Positions 30,399-36,692 of a stretch of 37,089 nt of DNA are shown in pieces. The notes beneath the pieces were generated by a model. It did not search any database. It saw nothing but the letters and a program-made list of their open reading frames with translations, and had not been told where the DNA came from. Position 1 is the first letter of the stretch. Each line of letters begins with the position of its first letter. The translations under genes and the position numbers were made by a program. The DNA is from Epsilonproteobacteria bacterium tcs-49 (GTDB lineage Bacteria > Campylobacterota > Campylobacteria > Campylobacterales > Sulfurovaceae), in the NCBI GenBank assembly GCA_002049495.1, contig LLYS01000014.1, positions 1-37,089 on the forward strand, in the 5' to 3' direction.

Positions 30399-30872
30399 GT
30401 GGCAAAGAAAGTCCTGTTTTTGTGCACGCACAACAGTGCCAGAAGTCAGATTGCGGAAGCGTTGTTAAAAAAGTACGGAGAGGATCGGTTTATCGTAGAG
30501 AGTGCGGGGTTCCAGGGGGATAAGATCCTGCCTTTGGCGATCAACGTCTTAGCTGAGGAGGGGATCGATATCAGCGATAAAAAACCCAACGATATTTTTG
30601 AATTTTTCAAACAGGGGCGACAATACAACTACGTCATCACCGTTTGTGACAGCGCTCGGGCAAAACAGTGCCCCATCTTTCCCGGACTTGATGCGAGGAT
30701 CCACTGGGATTTTGACGATCCCAGGGATTTCACCGGAGACGAAATCCAGAAAATGGCGCAGATGCGCATCCTCAAAGACGGCATTAAAGAGGAGGTACTG
30801 CGCCTCATAGAGCTGCATGAAGGCGAGGGTTTGAAAGAGCGCCTTCCCAAACACTGGATCCTTCAGCAGTAA
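30399..30872 (+). CDS. arsC: Arsenate reductase, thioredoxin-coupled (LMW-PTP type)
   Basis: The 157-residue product has the LMW phosphatase loop Cys9-x5-Arg in FLCTHNSARSQ, which binds arsenate, and the two redox cysteines Cys83 and Cys91 in VCDSARAKQCP that relay the disulfide to thioredoxin, as in pI258-type ArsC. HWDFDDPRD provides the catalytic Asp. It reduces As(V) to As(III) in the cytoplasm. Start is GTG with AAGGA six bases upstream. No arsenite pump or ArsR gene lies in this window; the gene stands alone. Confidence 0.9.
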   Translation: MAKKVLFLCTHNSARSQIAEALLKKYGEDRFIVESAGFQGDKILPLAINVLAEEGIDISDKKPNDIFEFFKQGRQYNYVITVCDSARAKQCPIFPGLDARIHWDFDDPRDFTGDEIQKMAQMRILKDGIKEEVLRLIELHEGEGLKERLPKHWILQQ

Positions 30873-30878
30873 GCCACC

Positions 30879-31268
30879 CTACTGCACAAGCTCTTTGATC
30901 CAACCCTCGAGGAGTTCGTGCAGCTTTTCGTTGGGAACTTCGAGGATACTGATCTCAAAATGGTCCTCATACTCGCACACCCCGATTGATCGGGGGCGAA
31001 CTGCTAAAATTTTGCTCGTGGGGATCTCCTTGCCGAAACAAAAGATCAAATTTTTCGCATCGATAAGGTCGGGTTGGATCTGTGCGTCTTCCAAACTTTT
31101 CGTATGGGTATAGTGGTCAAACTCGGCGATAAACTTCGCTACGGGGTGGTTATCCACCTTCTCTTTCAAAAACTTGATCACTTCATCGGTATTTCTACAC
31201 GCGGTTTCATCTTTTTTAACGCATAACTCGTAGATGGGATACTTCTCTTTAAACATCATCTGTTTCAT
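30879..31268 (-). CDS. Conserved hypothetical cytoplasmic protein (DUF6858-like)
   Basis: A 129-residue soluble protein with no signal peptide or membrane segment. Visible blocks are FKEKYPIYELCVKKDET at the N-terminus, FIAEFDHYTHTKSL in the middle, NLIFCFGKEIPTSKILAVRP and an acidic C-terminus. From memory it resembles the small family labelled DUF6858; this is uncertain. Function is unknown. It is the last gene of the cyd-linked minus-strand operon: its ATG is 4 bp past the stop of the TDT channel gene, with GGAG seven bases before it. Confidence 0.65.
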   Translation of the reverse strand: MKQMMFKEKYPIYELCVKKDETACRNTDEVIKFLKEKVDNHPVAKFIAEFDHYTHTKSLEDAQIQPDLIDAKNLIFCFGKEIPTSKILAVRPRSIGVCEYEDHFEISILEVPNEKLHELLEGWIKELVQ

Positions 31269-31272
31269 TGTT

Positions 31273-32247
31273 TTACTCCTGTATACATATCTCTTTTTTT
31301 CTCATGTGCTGCAGTGTTCTTACCGCAACGATAGCGACTACTACGGTGGTAACGGCGATAAAAATATAAGCCAATACGCTATAAAGCGCGATCCCCGTTA
31401 CCTTGTACGCCAGCATCGAAGCGATGGTCACCGCCGCCAGCGGGAAGGTAAATGCCCACCATGAGATGAAAAATTTCAAATTTAAAAAGTTTTTATACAT
31501 AAAAAACAGTAAAAAAGTAAAAAACAGCGCCAGATTATACAGCGCGCTGGCAAACATATCATACTCGCCGTACATCTTCATATACGCGATAAACGAGATT
31601 GCGGGAGGGGCGATAAAGATAAACAGCGTAGGGATAAACTTCACCGCCATCTGATGGTGGAAGATGATACGGTTGATCAAAACCGCCGTCAAAACGATCC
31701 AGAAAAACACCCCGATGGAAAAATAATACATCAAAAGCGCATTATCAAACATCCCGGCACCCGCTACGGGAACGAGGACGTTGCCGACGATAGGGATGAA
31801 CCATGCGGGGTTGGAGTGTTTGATCTCGAGGTTTCTATTGATCCAGAAACTGATCGTATACAGCGTAAAAAAGGTTTGCATCGCCGTACCGATGATAAAG
31901 CTGTAGTAACTCACCGCATGGTTCATGGGGTGGTACACGATCGAAATCAGCAAAAACGAGATCGCGCTTGCGGCAAAAAAGTTGATGCGTACCGGGTGGG
32001 CAAACTCCTTTTTCACCTCCTCAAAATAGCGCGTCATCTTTAGCAGATAAAAGATGATGATCGCGGCAAAAATAACGCTGTCGATGTAAGCCAGCACCGT
32101 TCCCACGCCGGGGGCAAAGCCCAAAATTTCCCAGGCTTTTTGATACACGATCGTCAAGCCCGATAACCCCATGACGATGGCAAACATCATAATAGGCATA
32201 AACTGCAGACGATTGCTTGGAACCGTTTCGCAATTTTCTTGTTGCAT
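31273..32247 (-). CDS. TDT/SLAC1-type (TehA-like) membrane channel or transporter
   Basis: The 324-residue integral membrane protein has about ten hydrophobic spans, in five pairs as in the TehA/SLAC1 fold. The opening MMFAIVMGLSGLTIVYQKAWEILG and the internal AWFIPIVGNVLVPVAGAG block are typical of the tellurite-resistance/dicarboxylate transporter family. Members conduct anions (chloride, nitrate, sulfite, malate) or confer tellurite tolerance. In this operon after a bd oxidase, a role in sulfite or other anion exit is possible but is only inference. AAGGAG precedes the ATG. Confidence 0.82.
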   Translation of the reverse strand: MQQENCETVPSNRLQFMPIMMFAIVMGLSGLTIVYQKAWEILGFAPGVGTVLAYIDSVIFAAIIIFYLLKMTRYFEEVKKEFAHPVRINFFAASAISFLLISIVYHPMNHAVSYYSFIIGTAMQTFFTLYTISFWINRNLEIKHSNPAWFIPIVGNVLVPVAGAGMFDNALLMYYFSIGVFFWIVLTAVLINRIIFHHQMAVKFIPTLFIFIAPPAISFIAYMKMYGEYDMFASALYNLALFFTFLLFFMYKNFLNLKFFISWWAFTFPLAAVTIASMLAYKVTGIALYSVLAYIFIAVTTVVVAIVAVRTLQHMRKKEICIQE

Positions 32248-32256
32248 ACTCTCTCC

Positions 32257-32799
32257 TTATTTAGTAATGGTTTGTAGTGATGTGACCGCACAGTCGATCC
32301 GCTTGGCGATATCGCGCCCCTGCATATCCATAAAATCGATTTGGAACTTATAAACAAGCTTTCCATCCAGTTTATAGTCAAATAGCAGATACCCCGCGTA
32401 AAGCTTTGCTTTTTTCGTCTTTTTCTTGGGATCTTTTTTATCGTTTTCATAGATAAGCACATTGAGTTCCACATCGCCGCTTTGGACAACGTTGATATCG
32501 TCTTGACCCAATCTTTTGACGATCAAGTCCCGGATCTTACGCTGACTGATCCGTTCAAAAAGTTGCGATTGCATATAGTGCGACTTTTGCACCCTCGTAT
32601 GCAGCGTTACGCCCCTTTGCAACGCTTTACCCAAAAGTTGCAAACGCTTCGGGTCAAATACCTTTTCAAAGGTTACCACCTCTTTATGGCAAGGGATCCG
32701 ATCACTCTTTGGCCCCTTTTTCGTCAACTGTTTATACACTTCCACGCCCAAAACGGTAACGATTGCCGCAATCAGCAGAGGATAGAAAAAACGTTTCAT
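32257..32799 (-). CDS. Membrane-anchored hypothetical protein
   Basis: The 180-residue product has one N-terminal membrane segment (about residues 4-20) followed by a soluble, lysine-rich domain with a single cysteine (about residue 37), probably facing the periplasm. I see no known family. I place the start at the ATG at 32799, six bases after AGGAG, rather than the GTG one codon upstream. It lies 10 bp from each neighbour in the cyd-linked operon. Confidence 0.65.
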   Translation of the reverse strand: MKRFFYPLLIAAIVTVLGVEVYKQLTKKGPKSDRIPCHKEVVTFEKVFDPKRLQLLGKALQRGVTLHTRVQKSHYMQSQLFERISQRKIRDLIVKRLGQDDINVVQSGDVELNVLIYENDKKDPKKKTKKAKLYAGYLLFDYKLDGKLVYKFQIDFMDMQGRDIAKRIDCAVTSLQTITK

Positions 32800-32809
32800 C
32801 ACCCTCTCC

Positions 32810-33172
32810 TTAGTGCGAACTGCACGTGCCCCGTGCCCCCGCGCTTTCTAACATGCCGTCGGCGAAGGCTTTGACCGATTGCGCCACCGTATCGGAGCGG
32901 CTATCGCGGTAAAGTTTCACCCCCGCTTGCACAAACCCGGCGGCGGGCTTGGCACCGATACCCGATACGACCAAAGCGTCGGGACGGAGGTTGAGGATGT
33001 TTTGTACCGCATCCTTGCAGCCGCCGCCGTGTCCGGGGTTGGCCACGCTTTCAACGTTGATCACCATGCCGCCGGTAAGGGTGACGACGGTGTAGTATTT
33101 CGCCCTGCCAAAATGTGCGCCGAGCGTAGCCTTGTGCCCCTTGTCCTCATTGGTTGGAAAAATCAGTTTCAT
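32810..33172 (-). CDS. NifX/NifB-like (dinitrogenase Fe-Mo cofactor family) protein, second copy
   Basis: A 120-residue protein with the family pattern: MKLIFPTNEDKG at the start, AHFGRAKYYTVV, the NPGHGGGCKDAVQNI segment and SGIGAKPAAGFVQAG. NifX, NafY and the NifB C-terminal domain bind iron-sulfur or Fe-Mo cofactor precursors; many stand-alone members occur in organisms without nitrogenase. The protein ends in a Cys-Ser-Ser-His tail. It is paired with a related gene at 33184-33588, 11 bp away. No nif genes are in the window, so a link to the bd oxidase or metal handling is more likely here. Confidence 0.82.
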   Translation of the reverse strand: MKLIFPTNEDKGHKATLGAHFGRAKYYTVVTLTGGMVINVESVANPGHGGGCKDAVQNILNLRPDALVVSGIGAKPAAGFVQAGVKLYRDSRSDTVAQSVKAFADGMLESAGARGTCSSH

Positions 33173-33183
33173 CTTGTATCCTT

Positions 33184-33588
33184 TTAGTGTTTGTGGGCAC
33201 CGTGGTGGTGCTCTCCCCGTTTTGCGTGGCTGTGCATGGAGCTTTGCTCCACATATGCGGCCATATTGCTACCGTCCACCCTCTCTAGCTCACCGCTTTG
33301 GAGTTTCTCGACCGCCCGGGAGAGCGTGATGCGCTCCTTTCCCGCATGATAGCACAAAATGCCCGCTTTTTGCAGCAGCATAAAGGGGTTGCCGCCCATA
33401 TGGGCAAAGATCAACCGTTTTACCCCCTTTTCCTGCAGCCAGCCGACCACGTCGCGTCCGCTTTGCAGCCTGTTTTGCGCCACCTCTACCGCTCCGGCAG
33501 CATCGATAAAGGCAAACCATTTGGCCTTACCAAAAAGCGGAGCCACGGGGGCGTCGTTTCTATCTGTTTTTACCGGTATCGCTATCAT
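33184..33588 (-). CDS. NifX/NifB-like protein with His-rich tail, first copy
   Basis: The 134-residue product shares the fold of its neighbour: MIAIPVKTDRND, APLFGKAKWFAFID, LQEKGVKRLIFAHMGGNPF, and LQKAGILCYH. The last ~20 residues are rich in His (SMHSHAKRGEHHHGAHKH), suggesting metal binding. The cofactor loop is less glycine/cysteine-rich than in the second copy. The ATG follows AAAGGG at 6 bp, and the start lies inside the 3' end of the 46-residue small protein gene (29-bp overlap), so translation is probably coupled. Confidence 0.8.
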   Translation of the reverse strand: MIAIPVKTDRNDAPVAPLFGKAKWFAFIDAAGAVEVAQNRLQSGRDVVGWLQEKGVKRLIFAHMGGNPFMLLQKAGILCYHAGKERITLSRAVEKLQSGELERVDGSNMAAYVEQSSMHSHAKRGEHHHGAHKH

Positions 33589-33700
33589 TGTTTACCCTTT
33601 TTTCATAATTGCTGATATTTTTCAATACAAGCCGGTATGATCCGTAGATCACGATGGGCCACAGCGTCAGCCAGATCAGTGAAGTCGTATAATCTACCAT
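33560..33700 (-). CDS. 46-residue bd-oxidase-associated membrane peptide (CydX-like candidate)
   Basis: A short frame starting MVDYTTSLIWLTLWPIVIYG, with one membrane helix (about residues 6-26) and a polar, basic C-terminal tail. AAGGA lies six bases before the ATG. The gene starts 12 bp after the cydB stop and overlaps the next gene by 29 bp. Its size, topology and place resemble the CydX/CbdX/CydY accessory peptides of bd oxidases, which stabilise the haems of CydAB, although the sequence does not obviously match CydX. A CcoQ-like accident or an unrelated small membrane protein is also possible. Confidence 0.7.
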   Translation of the reverse strand: MVDYTTSLIWLTLWPIVIYGSYRLVLKNISNYEKRVNNDSDTGKNR

Positions 33701-33712
33701 TGTCTATCCTTT

Positions 33713-34846
33713 TTAATAGTTGTGCGTTTCGGGATCTTCGATCTCCTCTTGCGTCATCTTCACCCGGTCCATGGCGTACCACACATAGGCGATATACGCC
33801 AAAACGAAAGGCACCATCAAAGAGACGTAACTCATCGCCGTCAGCGTGTATTCGCTGCCGGAGCTGTTTTCGATGGTGAGCGAACTTTGCAGATCATATA
33901 CCGAAGGGTAGTACGCCGTGTTGTTCAGTCCCACGTTTAAAAACAGCGCCATCACCGTCAGTACGATTCCCACGCCCTCGGTTTTGATGCAGCAGCTTTT
34001 TTTCTTGACAACCGTATTGTAAACGGCGTAGATCACCATCAAAACGCCGATGACAAACATCGCACCCGCAACGGGCATCTCGATAAAGTTCCAAAAGTAT
34101 TTGTTCGCTTCCATCACCACTGTGCCCCGCCCATCGTAAGCAAAGCCCTCTTTTACAAAGATCCACGCCAAAAACCCAAGAAAGAGAACCAAAAAGGGTA
34201 CAACATCCTTTTTGATACTGCCCACGGCGTTTTCGCGGATCACCCGATCGTCGATATTGTTGATAAAATACATCGCCCCGGCGATGCGAACTAAAAAAAA
34301 CAGCGCAAACCCAAGCAGATAGTTGTAGGGGTTAAACAGCGCTTCCAAGCCCCGCAAAGCGTGCTGCCAGTGCGAAAAGTTGTTGCTATCCACCGTAAAG
34401 AGCGAACCGCTGAAAAAGGTGCTGATAGCGATACCGAGTAAAATCACGCCCAGGGAGCCGTTGATATATAAAAAGGTTTCATAGACCTTTTGGCCCAGAA
34501 AGTTGTCGGGCTTTTTACGGTACTCGTAACTCACAGCCTGGATGATAAAGCAAAACAAAATCGCCATCCACACCCAGTACGCTCCGCCGAAACTGGTGGC
34601 GTAAAACAGCGGGAACGCCGCAAAAAGCGCCCCGCCAAAGAGAACGAGCGTGGTAAAGCCAAGCTCCCACTTGCGTCCAAGGGAGTTAACGAGCATCGTT
34701 TTTTTCACTTCATCTCCTCCCGAAACTCTGCCCAGGATCGTTTGACCGCCCTGGACAAACATGATAAACGCGAACAAACCGCCCAGCAGGGAGATGATGA
34801 TCCACCAGTACTGCTGCAACTGTAAAAATGATAATTGTTCAAACAT
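33713..34846 (-). CDS. cydB: Cytochrome bd quinol oxidase subunit II
   Basis: The 377-residue membrane protein has about eight to nine spans and the family opening LQLQQYWWIIISLLGGLFAFIMFVQGGQ, which is a divergent form of the CydB start. It partners CydA and forms the quinol-oxidase heterodimer. A Cys-Cys pair in KKKSCCIK lies on a loop. The ATG directly follows the cydA TAA, its ribosome-binding site AAAGGA lying inside the end of cydA. Divergence from the enterobacterial type is typical of Campylobacterota and Bacteroidota bd oxidases. Confidence 0.92.
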   Translation of the reverse strand: MFEQLSFLQLQQYWWIIISLLGGLFAFIMFVQGGQTILGRVSGGDEVKKTMLVNSLGRKWELGFTTLVLFGGALFAAFPLFYATSFGGAYWVWMAILFCFIIQAVSYEYRKKPDNFLGQKVYETFLYINGSLGVILLGIAISTFFSGSLFTVDSNNFSHWQHALRGLEALFNPYNYLLGFALFFLVRIAGAMYFINNIDDRVIRENAVGSIKKDVVPFLVLFLGFLAWIFVKEGFAYDGRGTVVMEANKYFWNFIEMPVAGAMFVIGVLMVIYAVYNTVVKKKSCCIKTEGVGIVLTVMALFLNVGLNNTAYYPSVYDLQSSLTIENSSGSEYTLTAMSYVSLMVPFVLAYIAYVWYAMDRVKMTQEEIEDPETHNY

Positions 34847-36370
34847 TTAGTGTCCTTTCGGTCCGATTTTAATCTGGCGCAGCATGATCTTGATCTCTGC
34901 AAGAAGCAGCGCCGTAAATAAAAAGGCAAAGAGCCAGAAGGTGATCTGAACGTTGCTCGTACCGATATCGGTCGCCGCGACGCCTACGGGCATCAAGTCC
35001 TGGATAGCCCAGGGTTGGCGCCCCACTTCCGCTACGATCCAGCCCGCTTCCGCTGCGATCCACCCCAGGGGGATGGAGTACAGCGACGCTTTAAGCCAGA
35101 AGCGGCTTTGGGCGATATCTTTTTTCGTAGACAGATACAGCACCGCCGCAAAGAGCACCAAAAACCAGCCTCCAAGCAGCACCATCACGTGAAAGCTGTA
35201 AAAGGTCAGCGCCACGGGCGGTACCACGTCTTCGGGTTTTTCCAGGTGCCCATATCCGAAGTACTCCATATTCTTTTCCAAAACAGCGCGGTTTTTCACC
35301 TGCGCCGCGGTGTCGCCGCTCTCTTTGGCCGCTTTGTACGCTTCCAGTGCGGCGATCGCTTTGTTACCCTTTTCTATCTTCGAAGCCGCCGATTCAAAGC
35401 CGCGCTCCTCGTTGCCGTACACCAGATCGTGCAAGCCCGGGACATACGCATCCCAAACGTGATAGCCCAGAATGGAAAGCGCATAAGGCACTTCGATCTC
35501 AAAGTCGTAGGTCGGTTCATCGCTTAAGAGTTTTTTATTGCTGTTAAGTATCCCAAAAGCCACGATCCCCGCGGCTTCCTTGCCGTCATACATCCCCTCC
35601 ATCGCCGCTAACTTCACCGGCTGCTTCTGCGCTACCTGGTGGGCGGATTCATCTCCGCTGACGACGATAAAGATCGAAACGACAAGCCCGAAGGTCGAAC
35701 CGATGATCATGGACTTTTTGGCAAACTCCACTTCGCGCTTTTTGAGCAGATACCACGCACTGATGCCGATGACAAACAGCGCGGCGATGACGTAGCCGCT
35801 GCCGATGGTGTGCAAAAACTTCGCAATGGCGACGGGGCTAAGCGCCACGTCCCAAAAGCTTGCCATCTCGTTGCGCACCGTATCGGGATTAAACTCCATC
35901 CCCACGGGAAACTGCATCCAGCCGTTTGCCACGAGGATCCAAAACGCCGAGAGGTTGGACCCTACGGCAACCAGCCACGTAGAGAGCAGGTGAAACTTTT
36001 TGCCCACCTTGTTCCAGCCAAAAAACATCACCGCAAAGAATGTGGATTCCATAAAGAAGGCTAAAATCCCCTCCACGGCCAAAGGCGCGCCGAAGATATC
36101 GCCCACAAACCAGCTGTAATTGGCCCAGTTGGTCCCAAACTCAAACTCCATAATCAGCCCCGTCGCCACGCCGATGGCGAAGTTGATGGCAAACAGCGTC
36201 ATCCAAAACCTGGTCATCTCTTTGTATTTAAGATCCCCCGTTTTGACATAGATCGTTTCCATGATCGCTACGATAAAGGATAATCCCAAAGTCAAAGGGA
36301 CGAATAAAAAGTGGTAAATGGCCGTCAACGCAAACTGCGCCCGCGACCAGTCGATTAATTGCTCTTCCAT
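34847..36370 (-). CDS. cydA: Cytochrome bd quinol oxidase subunit I
   Basis: The 507-residue subunit carries all three haems and oxidises quinol at the periplasmic face, reducing O2 to water with high affinity. Visible residues: haem b595 ligand His20 (AIYHFLFVPLTLG), proton-path Glu100 and Glu108 (APLAVEGILAFFMEST), haem b558 ligands His187 (FLHTIGSG) and Met396 (YSFHVMVLLGG), Q-loop Lys253 and Glu258 (KQPVKLAAMEG), and GRQPW near 450. The residue two before Met396 is His394, where the E. coli enzyme has Arg391. AAGGAG precedes the ATG. Second gene of the operon, after DUF4492. Confidence 0.96.
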   Translation of the reverse strand: MEEQLIDWSRAQFALTAIYHFLFVPLTLGLSFIVAIMETIYVKTGDLKYKEMTRFWMTLFAINFAIGVATGLIMEFEFGTNWANYSWFVGDIFGAPLAVEGILAFFMESTFFAVMFFGWNKVGKKFHLLSTWLVAVGSNLSAFWILVANGWMQFPVGMEFNPDTVRNEMASFWDVALSPVAIAKFLHTIGSGYVIAALFVIGISAWYLLKKREVEFAKKSMIIGSTFGLVVSIFIVVSGDESAHQVAQKQPVKLAAMEGMYDGKEAAGIVAFGILNSNKKLLSDEPTYDFEIEVPYALSILGYHVWDAYVPGLHDLVYGNEERGFESAASKIEKGNKAIAALEAYKAAKESGDTAAQVKNRAVLEKNMEYFGYGHLEKPEDVVPPVALTFYSFHVMVLLGGWFLVLFAAVLYLSTKKDIAQSRFWLKASLYSIPLGWIAAEAGWIVAEVGRQPWAIQDLMPVGVAATDIGTSNVQITFWLFAFLFTALLLAEIKIMLRQIKIGPKGH

Positions 36371-36417
36371 TGTTTTCTCCTTAGACGAAGGCTCAAAAAA
36401 CCGGTTCAGGGTTCATG

Positions 36418-36633
36418 CTATCTGCTTTTTCCTACCAGATTGCCGTGAACAAATTCGATCTTTTGCGCCTCGTTTTCATACTCCGTATCGATCGAGCGGT
36501 CATACACAAAATAGTTCAGCACGATCAAAATCACGGCGACCTTGATAAAGATCAGCCGCCACAATGTTTTGCCGGTTGTCATACTTTTAAACCCCTGGGC
36601 ATAAAAGTCGTATACGTTTTTAATCAGTTTCAT
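36418..36633 (-). CDS. DUF4492 protein, first gene of the cyd operon
   Basis: A 71-residue protein with the DUF4492 pattern: YDFYAQGFKSMTTGKTLW followed by one membrane helix (about residues 26-45, LIFIKVAVILIVLNYFVY) and a short polar tail. The family regularly precedes cydA in Campylobacterota and Bacteroidota, so a role in bd oxidase assembly or stability is suspected, though unproven to my knowledge. AAAGG lies seven bases before the ATG, and the operator/promoter region lies immediately upstream. Confidence 0.85.
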   Translation of the reverse strand: MKLIKNVYDFYAQGFKSMTTGKTLWRLIFIKVAVILIVLNYFVYDRSIDTEYENEAQKIEFVHGNLVGKSR

Positions 36634-36649
36634 TTTACAACCTTTTTAA

Positions 36650-36689
36650 ACATATGTTCATTATAATACCATTTTTTATGAACATATGT
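36650..36689. promoter_or_regulatory. Inverted operator pair of the cyd operon
   Basis: ACATATGTTCAT (36650-36661) and its exact reverse complement ATGAACATATGT (36678-36689) flank the promoter. Each holds the palindrome ACATATGT, and their centres are 32 bp apart, about three helical turns. One covers the expected transcription start, the other overlaps the -35 box: a classic repressor layout. The regulator is unknown. Confidence 0.7.
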
Positions 36690-36692
36690 CAA
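36663..36692 (-). promoter_or_regulatory. cyd operon promoter
   Basis: Reading the minus strand, TTGACA (36692-36687), an 18-bp spacer and TATTAT (36668-36663); a perfect TATAAT overlaps 3 bp further (36665-36660). The start would be about 20-30 bp before the DUF4492 ATG at 36633. Confidence 0.65.

Follow-up and report, generated by a model that had tools for sequence, protein, structure and literature searches.

Why a cytochrome bd operon should carry NifX-like proteins and an anion-channel-like protein, and what joins them to the oxidase, is the question raised by the right-hand part of the window, i.e. the whole stretch of DNA that was analysed (37,089 nucleotides). Nine tightly spaced open reading frames occupy positions 30879-36633 on the minus strand. 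The ORF list and a family search of the window recovered all ORFs and families of the original prediction, with gaps of at most 47 bp, the widest lying between DUF4492 and cydA. In the order of transcription these are:

36418..36633, minus strand: DUF4492, small membrane protein (PF14899, 5e-22)
34847..36370, minus strand: CydA, bd oxidase subunit I (PF01654, 2e-166)
33713..34846, minus strand: CydB, bd oxidase subunit II (PF02322, 4e-69)
33560..33700, minus strand: 46-aa single-helix peptide, CydY/CioY-like oxidase subunit, without family match
33184..33588, minus strand: NifXa, NifX-domain protein with a His-rich C-terminal tail (PF02579, 2e-13)
32810..33172, minus strand: NifXb, NifX-domain protein with HFGRA, GHGGGC and C-terminal TCSSH (PF02579, 2e-13)
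32257..32802, minus strand: anch181, one N-terminal membrane helix and an alpha/beta domain, two invariant Cys
31273..32247, minus strand: TDT/SLAC1 anion-channel-like membrane protein, TehA-like (PF03595, 2e-50)
30879..31268, minus strand: DUF6858, soluble, predicted DUF302-like fold (PF21651, 9e-55)

The genes for the 46-aa peptide and NifXa overlap by 29 bp, and a convergent arsC-like gene (LMWPc, 30399-30872) is located 6 bp beyond the operon end. The strongest promoter-like site of the region (36692-36663, 11 of 12 matches) precedes DUF4492, while a promoter and terminator scan of the gaps after cydB gave no match; internal matches all fell within coding sequence and were barely commoner than in shuffled sequence. 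This agrees with the claim that one promoter serves all nine genes, which would form a single transcript. The right end of the contig (window 36879-37089) is an inverted repeat with perfect arms of 56 bp and a spacer of about 100 bp, in which the same peptide is encoded on both strands; it resembles a fold-back at a contig end and is perhaps an assembly artefact.

The oxidase core

DUF4492, cydA, cydB and the peptide are the ordinary, already known core common to all cyd loci checked. CydA is of the long-Q-loop (E. coli-like) type, and GRQPW as well as the H, H, M and E positions that we take to be the haem ligands are conserved. Residues 5-505 of CydA align with residues 4-502 of E. coli bd-I (6rko_A, E 7e-138), the Q-loop region being covered. 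Among 60 relatives, DUF4492 was present in all 17 genomes with a CydA above cut-off, and it was always linked to cydA in the sampled taxonomic order. Its presence at the 76 cyd loci examined is partly due to selection, since these were mostly retrieved via DUF4492 matches in a sample of 249 genomes of the order. The peptide, which was no selection criterion, directly followed cydB at every one of these loci save one ended by a contig edge.

The original prediction had treated this peptide as a possible new factor, but it corresponds to an already described subunit: by its sequence (a single helix within the range of 30-60 aa, placed after cydB in an operon without CydX, with conserved W and P) it is CydY/CioY, which is known from Campylobacter as part of the oxidase. 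In long-Q-loop bd oxidases CydY/CioY is the small subunit (Allen 2014, PMC4325964; Froschauer 2025, PMC11955535), with physical binding to CydA/CioA demonstrated solely for C. jejuni CioY. Ahead of such cydAB genes, a small hydrophobic protein has also been remarked on (Allen 2014, PMC4325964), and DUF4492 fits this description. Like its counterparts in Campylobacterota, the small window peptide has a single helix, is encoded immediately downstream of cydB and keeps the W, P and Y residues; no tested feature distinguishes it, and in the window its gene overlaps NifXa. A longer CydY-like form (about 70 aa), apparently with a signal peptide, occurs in two families (f12 and f15; L078, L079 and L156).

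Accessory genes and their neighbourhoods

The NifX pair belongs to the Nitro_FeMo-Co/ORP-MTH1175 superfamily, with 50.7 and 51.1 bits against a PF02579 gathering score of 26.3, and among solved structures it comes closest to Thermotoga NifB-like proteins, MTH1175 and D. gigas ORP. Assignment to the NifX of the nif system was rejected, as NifXb reached 16.6 bits against the NCBIfam nifX equivalog cut-off of 112 and NifXa gave no match; membership in a nif cluster was likewise rejected, nifH being on another contig. The earlier statement that nif genes are absent holds for the window but not for the genome, where nifH is found at full score (C13:145878-146732) with a NifX-domain gene close by (C13:148632). 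Both are located within C13:145878-148916 (in L344), and their presence makes nitrogen fixation by the source organism probable.

For anch181 neither Pfam nor NCBIfam gave a family; its listed structure matches were PelC, TraT and TolB-like proteins with moderate Z, and no DUF302 structure was among the matches listed, so that kinship of anch181 with DUF302 gained no support. TDT scored 172 bits against the PF03595 gathering score of 27.9, while remaining under the stricter NCBIfam tdt cut-off (168.7 versus 237). For DUF6858 a DUF302 fold is predicted, which denotes fold and not sequence membership: its predicted structure (pLDDT 96) matched the DUF302 proteins 1q9u_A (Z 12.4, 2.5 A over 109 residues) and 1j3m_A (Z 10.5), with a Foldseek E of only 0.011, and the top structural match was 7tj1 (Z 12.8), annotated as a CrcB homologue. 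Unlike DUF302 proteins, DUF6858 has no significant sequence match to that family and no membrane anchor as in the module's DUF302 proteins. DUF302 accompanies TDT in sister modules, and DUF302 genes occur in sox and sqr operons (PMC5037610, PMC5061849).

A survey of the 76 cyd loci for at least one of DUF134, NifXa/b, TDT, DUF6858, anch181, DUF302 and mem67 (a membrane protein of 67 aa outside the known families) near cyd found such genes at 32 loci, the window counted, in about eight families and in shuffled order, while the remaining 44 loci had none. The order in G055 and G165 was TDT, DUF6858, <DUF134, NifXa, NifXb, DUF4492, cydAB, peptide; in G191 it was <DUF134, DUF6858, NifXb, TDT, DUF302, DUF4492, cydAB, peptide; and in G125 <DUF134, DUF4492, cydAB, peptide, NifXa, anch181, DUF6858. 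The same accessory set was often present without cyd, and most NifX/TDT/DUF6858/DUF134 modules were free of cyd. Within 5 kb of 90 DUF134 genes (a set from which 13 NifX-domain proteins matching via the NifX-like half of the profile were left out) we found NifX (58), TDT (19), cydA (17), DUF6858 (15) and a MinD-like ATPase (14). The five downstream genes are not hitch-hikers, but belong to a module that has taken in cyd in some lineages.

The possibility that the linkage is confined to this genome is refuted, since the accessory genes are linked to cydAB in many others. Tight same-strand runs do arise by chance in compact genomes, and unrelated genes could have come to lie downstream of a standard cydAB operon; however, the recurrence of the same families beside cyd in other orders, together with a shared operator, leaves chance co-location hardly credible, and it was rejected on the strength of the neighbourhood survey. 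A module that assembles the oxidase, as the original prediction proposed, fared poorly as well. The single operon, its tight spacing and the overlap of the peptide and NifXa genes would suit a NifX-like pair that, with its neighbours, matures or protects the bd oxidase itself, but most of the cyd loci surveyed have no such module, and most of the modules lack cyd, which weakens the idea. To our knowledge, bd oxidase contains haems and no metal-sulfur cluster, which further counts against oxidase maturation, and we consider this explanation very unlikely.

The operator and its candidate DUF134 regulator

Two copies of the palindrome TGAACATATGTTCA bracket the promoter of the window:

36679..36692, minus strand: operator site 1, TTGACATATGTTCA, containing the -35 hexamer TTGACA
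36663..36668, minus strand: -10 hexamer TATTAT, between both operator sites
36647..36660, minus strand: operator site 2, TGAACATATGTTTA, just past the -10 hexamer and spanning the expected transcription start

Most relatives with two sites exhibit the same layout, with a spacing of 30-34 bp around the -35 and -10 hexamers and a ribosome-binding site close behind. When counted with up to two mismatches in the region from -350 to +120 of a gene, the palindrome was near 70 of the 90 DUF134 genes versus 27 of the 797 remaining genes at these loci, some of these 27 sharing one intergenic space with DUF134 genes. The 700 bp upstream of cyd contained it at 13 of 43 loci in DUF134-bearing genomes versus none of 33 in genomes without DUF134, while many cyd operons of DUF134-bearing genomes have no such site. 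Exact copies of TTGACATATGTTCA occurred 31 times in 30 whole genomes: 27 were no more than about 300 bp from a DUF134 gene, one was the window promoter, one preceded TDT-DUF6858 and two were elsewhere; the genes facing these sites include DUF4492-cyd, NifX, TDT and anch181. Related genomes are taken separately in these operator counts, so that their independence is overstated. An ArsR-type repressor was dropped as owner of the palindrome once the sites were found at DUF134 genes, and the association of palindrome and DUF134, taken by itself, is very probably real.

The genome of the window has one DUF134 (UPF0251) gene (C1:364-966), on another contig than the operon, and the window operon thus combines the two marks of the regulon, a DUF134 gene in the genome and the palindrome at its promoter. 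Long DUF134 proteins (about 195 aa) possess a NifX-like second half and are alignable throughout, and this half gave a PF02579-like match of 3e-7 in G004, 0.002 in G055 and 0.08 in the genome of the window. The palindrome upstream of the genome's own DUF134 gene is degenerate (TGGACATATGTCAA, three mismatches); on the opposite strand it reads TTGACATATGTCCA, a -35-bearing site with one mismatch that faces a truncated ccoG (cbb3 oxidase accessory gene; TIGR02745, 5e-15; L129, G000:C1, 1-364) divergent from DUF134. This ccoG was found beside DUF134 in the genome of the window only. Among the control genomes, those of Bacteroides and methanogens also gave matches to DUF134 (PF02001).

A pattern search of the same genome located further matches. 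One operator at C14:50249 is about 25 bp before the start of mem67 (L130, G000:C14, 4019-4263). In G070 and G096, relatives of mem67 neighbour NifXa on the upstream side of cyd; in G052 a relative follows cyd, and in G242 one is beside NifXa or cyd. Another match (C17:76656) is inside a coding region and is probably due to chance.

From these patterns we infer DUF134 to be the palindrome-binding protein and a repressor. Our strongest results are the operator, its tie to DUF134, and the membership that cyd and the accessory genes have in common. The link that joins the genes, a shared operator and a DUF134-NifX regulator, is the new part and had been missed by the original prediction. Cytochrome bd has apparently been packaged repeatedly in Campylobacterota with NifX-like and anion-channel-like proteins under one DUF134 repressor. 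A search of the open-access literature returned no earlier description of this regulon and no characterised role of DUF134.

Candidate signals and related systems

Within four genes of DUF6858 at 80 loci, the neighbours included TDT (16), SQR-like (14), MetY (8), DsrE-like (5) and MsrB-like (5) genes, with Aquifex SQR as the closest solved structure of the SQR-like proteins. DUF6858 relatives also occur in named sulfur oxidisers, e.g. Thiothrix and Ectothiorhodospira, and in G172 and G141 TDT-DUF302-SQR gene runs are opposite DUF134 and its sites. These neighbours (SQR-like, MetY, DsrE-like and DUF302) lend independent support to the sulfide connection suggested in the original prediction and favour sulfide as the signal; of the readings considered, a module that would respond to sulfide or metal sulfide has the most support. 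Resistance to sulfide is documented for the bd oxidases of E. coli (PMC4815019).

We put at about one half the probability that an autoregulated DUF134-NifX repressor controls a sulfide/metal-sulfide stress module including the bd oxidase. Against this reading stand the location of the genome's own DUF134 gene on another contig, the degenerate palindrome before it, the low score of its NifX-like half, the many cyd operons lacking a site in DUF134-bearing genomes, and neighbours such as Hcp that suggest NO. The repressor would consist of the helix-turn-helix domain of DUF134, joined in long proteins to a NifX-like ligand domain. It would bind TGAACATATGTTCA, and since the window sites cover the -35 hexamer and the region just past the -10 hexamer, the bound protein should block transcription. 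Repression would be lifted by a signal, most likely a metal-sulfide cluster or excess sulfide, felt via the NifX-like domain. The derepressed cell would then produce a sulfide-insensitive quinol oxidase (CydAB, CydY and DUF4492) together with presumptive NifX-like metal-cluster binders, the TDT anion-channel-like protein, an envelope protein with a membrane anchor, and DUF6858 with its predicted DUF302 fold. More tentatively, and in our estimate rather improbably, the NifX-like domain of the regulator might bind a Cu-, Fe- or Mo-sulfide cluster and so gauge sulfide and metal, swapping copper-dependent cbb3 for copper-free bd; this swap is suggested because TTGACATATGTCCA, a variant of the cyd promoter-operator, precedes ccoG, divergent from DUF134.

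The same DUF134-controlled operon could instead answer NO or Fe-S damage, sensed by the NifX-like sensor as a damaged or nitrosylated cluster, with the bd oxidase giving NO-tolerant respiration and the NifX-like proteins holding or repairing clusters. A run of DUF134, NifX, cytochrome c, Crp-like and Hcp (prismane) genes in G058 begins at a double operator (L132 3994-7433), NifU-like, flavin reductase and cytochrome c genes are near DUF134/NifX in G032 and G051, and bd oxidases protect against NO too (C. violaceum CioAB, PMC11837568), but Hcp appeared in one genome only and sulfur-metabolism neighbours are commoner, and we regard NO or Fe-S damage as a rather unlikely signal. Copper or another metal, handled as Cu or Cu/Mo-S by the NifX-like proteins and the sensor during an exchange of cbb3 for copper-free bd, would accord with the His-rich NifXa tail, the Cys/His motifs of NifXb, the one-mismatch site facing ccoG and the Mo-Cu-S cluster bound by ORP, a relative of the NifX pair (PMC6345978). 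Since ccoG adjoins DUF134 in this genome only and the survey recognised no copper transporter or chaperone family, a metal signal of this kind seems unlikely.

If control by DUF134 in response to sulfide holds, the regulon would explain when bacteria of sulfidic habitats turn on a sulfide-proof oxidase. It would also connect respiration and sulfur stress with NifX-like proteins that have no part in nitrogen fixation. The operator and target list in Campylobacterota make the widespread DUF134 a testable regulator, and a readable operator makes the coupling of respiration to sulfide or metal-cluster status testable. A cluster-sensing DUF134, if true, would represent a cofactor-binding fold recruited to report on respiratory metal-sulfide status at the level of transcription.

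As proposed here, a dedicated repressor is located at or acts on the bd oxidase in the CioR/CioAB system of C. violaceum (PMC11837568) and the CydE-controlled bd of Alishewanella (PMC6096048), both of which are linked to sulfide, metal and NO tolerance. CioR and CydE are of the GbsR/MarR type, whereas the candidate for the window is a DUF134 protein that includes a NifX-like domain and goes with a palindrome of its own and a different set of target genes. The Desulfovibrio ORP cluster (PMC6345978, PMC3897727), whose orp genes are sigma54/DVU2106-controlled, resembles the window operon in its NifX-domain proteins of the ORP/MTH1175 kind. Unlike that cluster, the window operon has no MinD-like ATPase; such ATPases are present in sister loci (e.g. 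L019 and L025), and ORP-like sister clusters of other Campylobacterales carry two ferredoxin-domain MinD-like ATPases under the same DUF134 operator.
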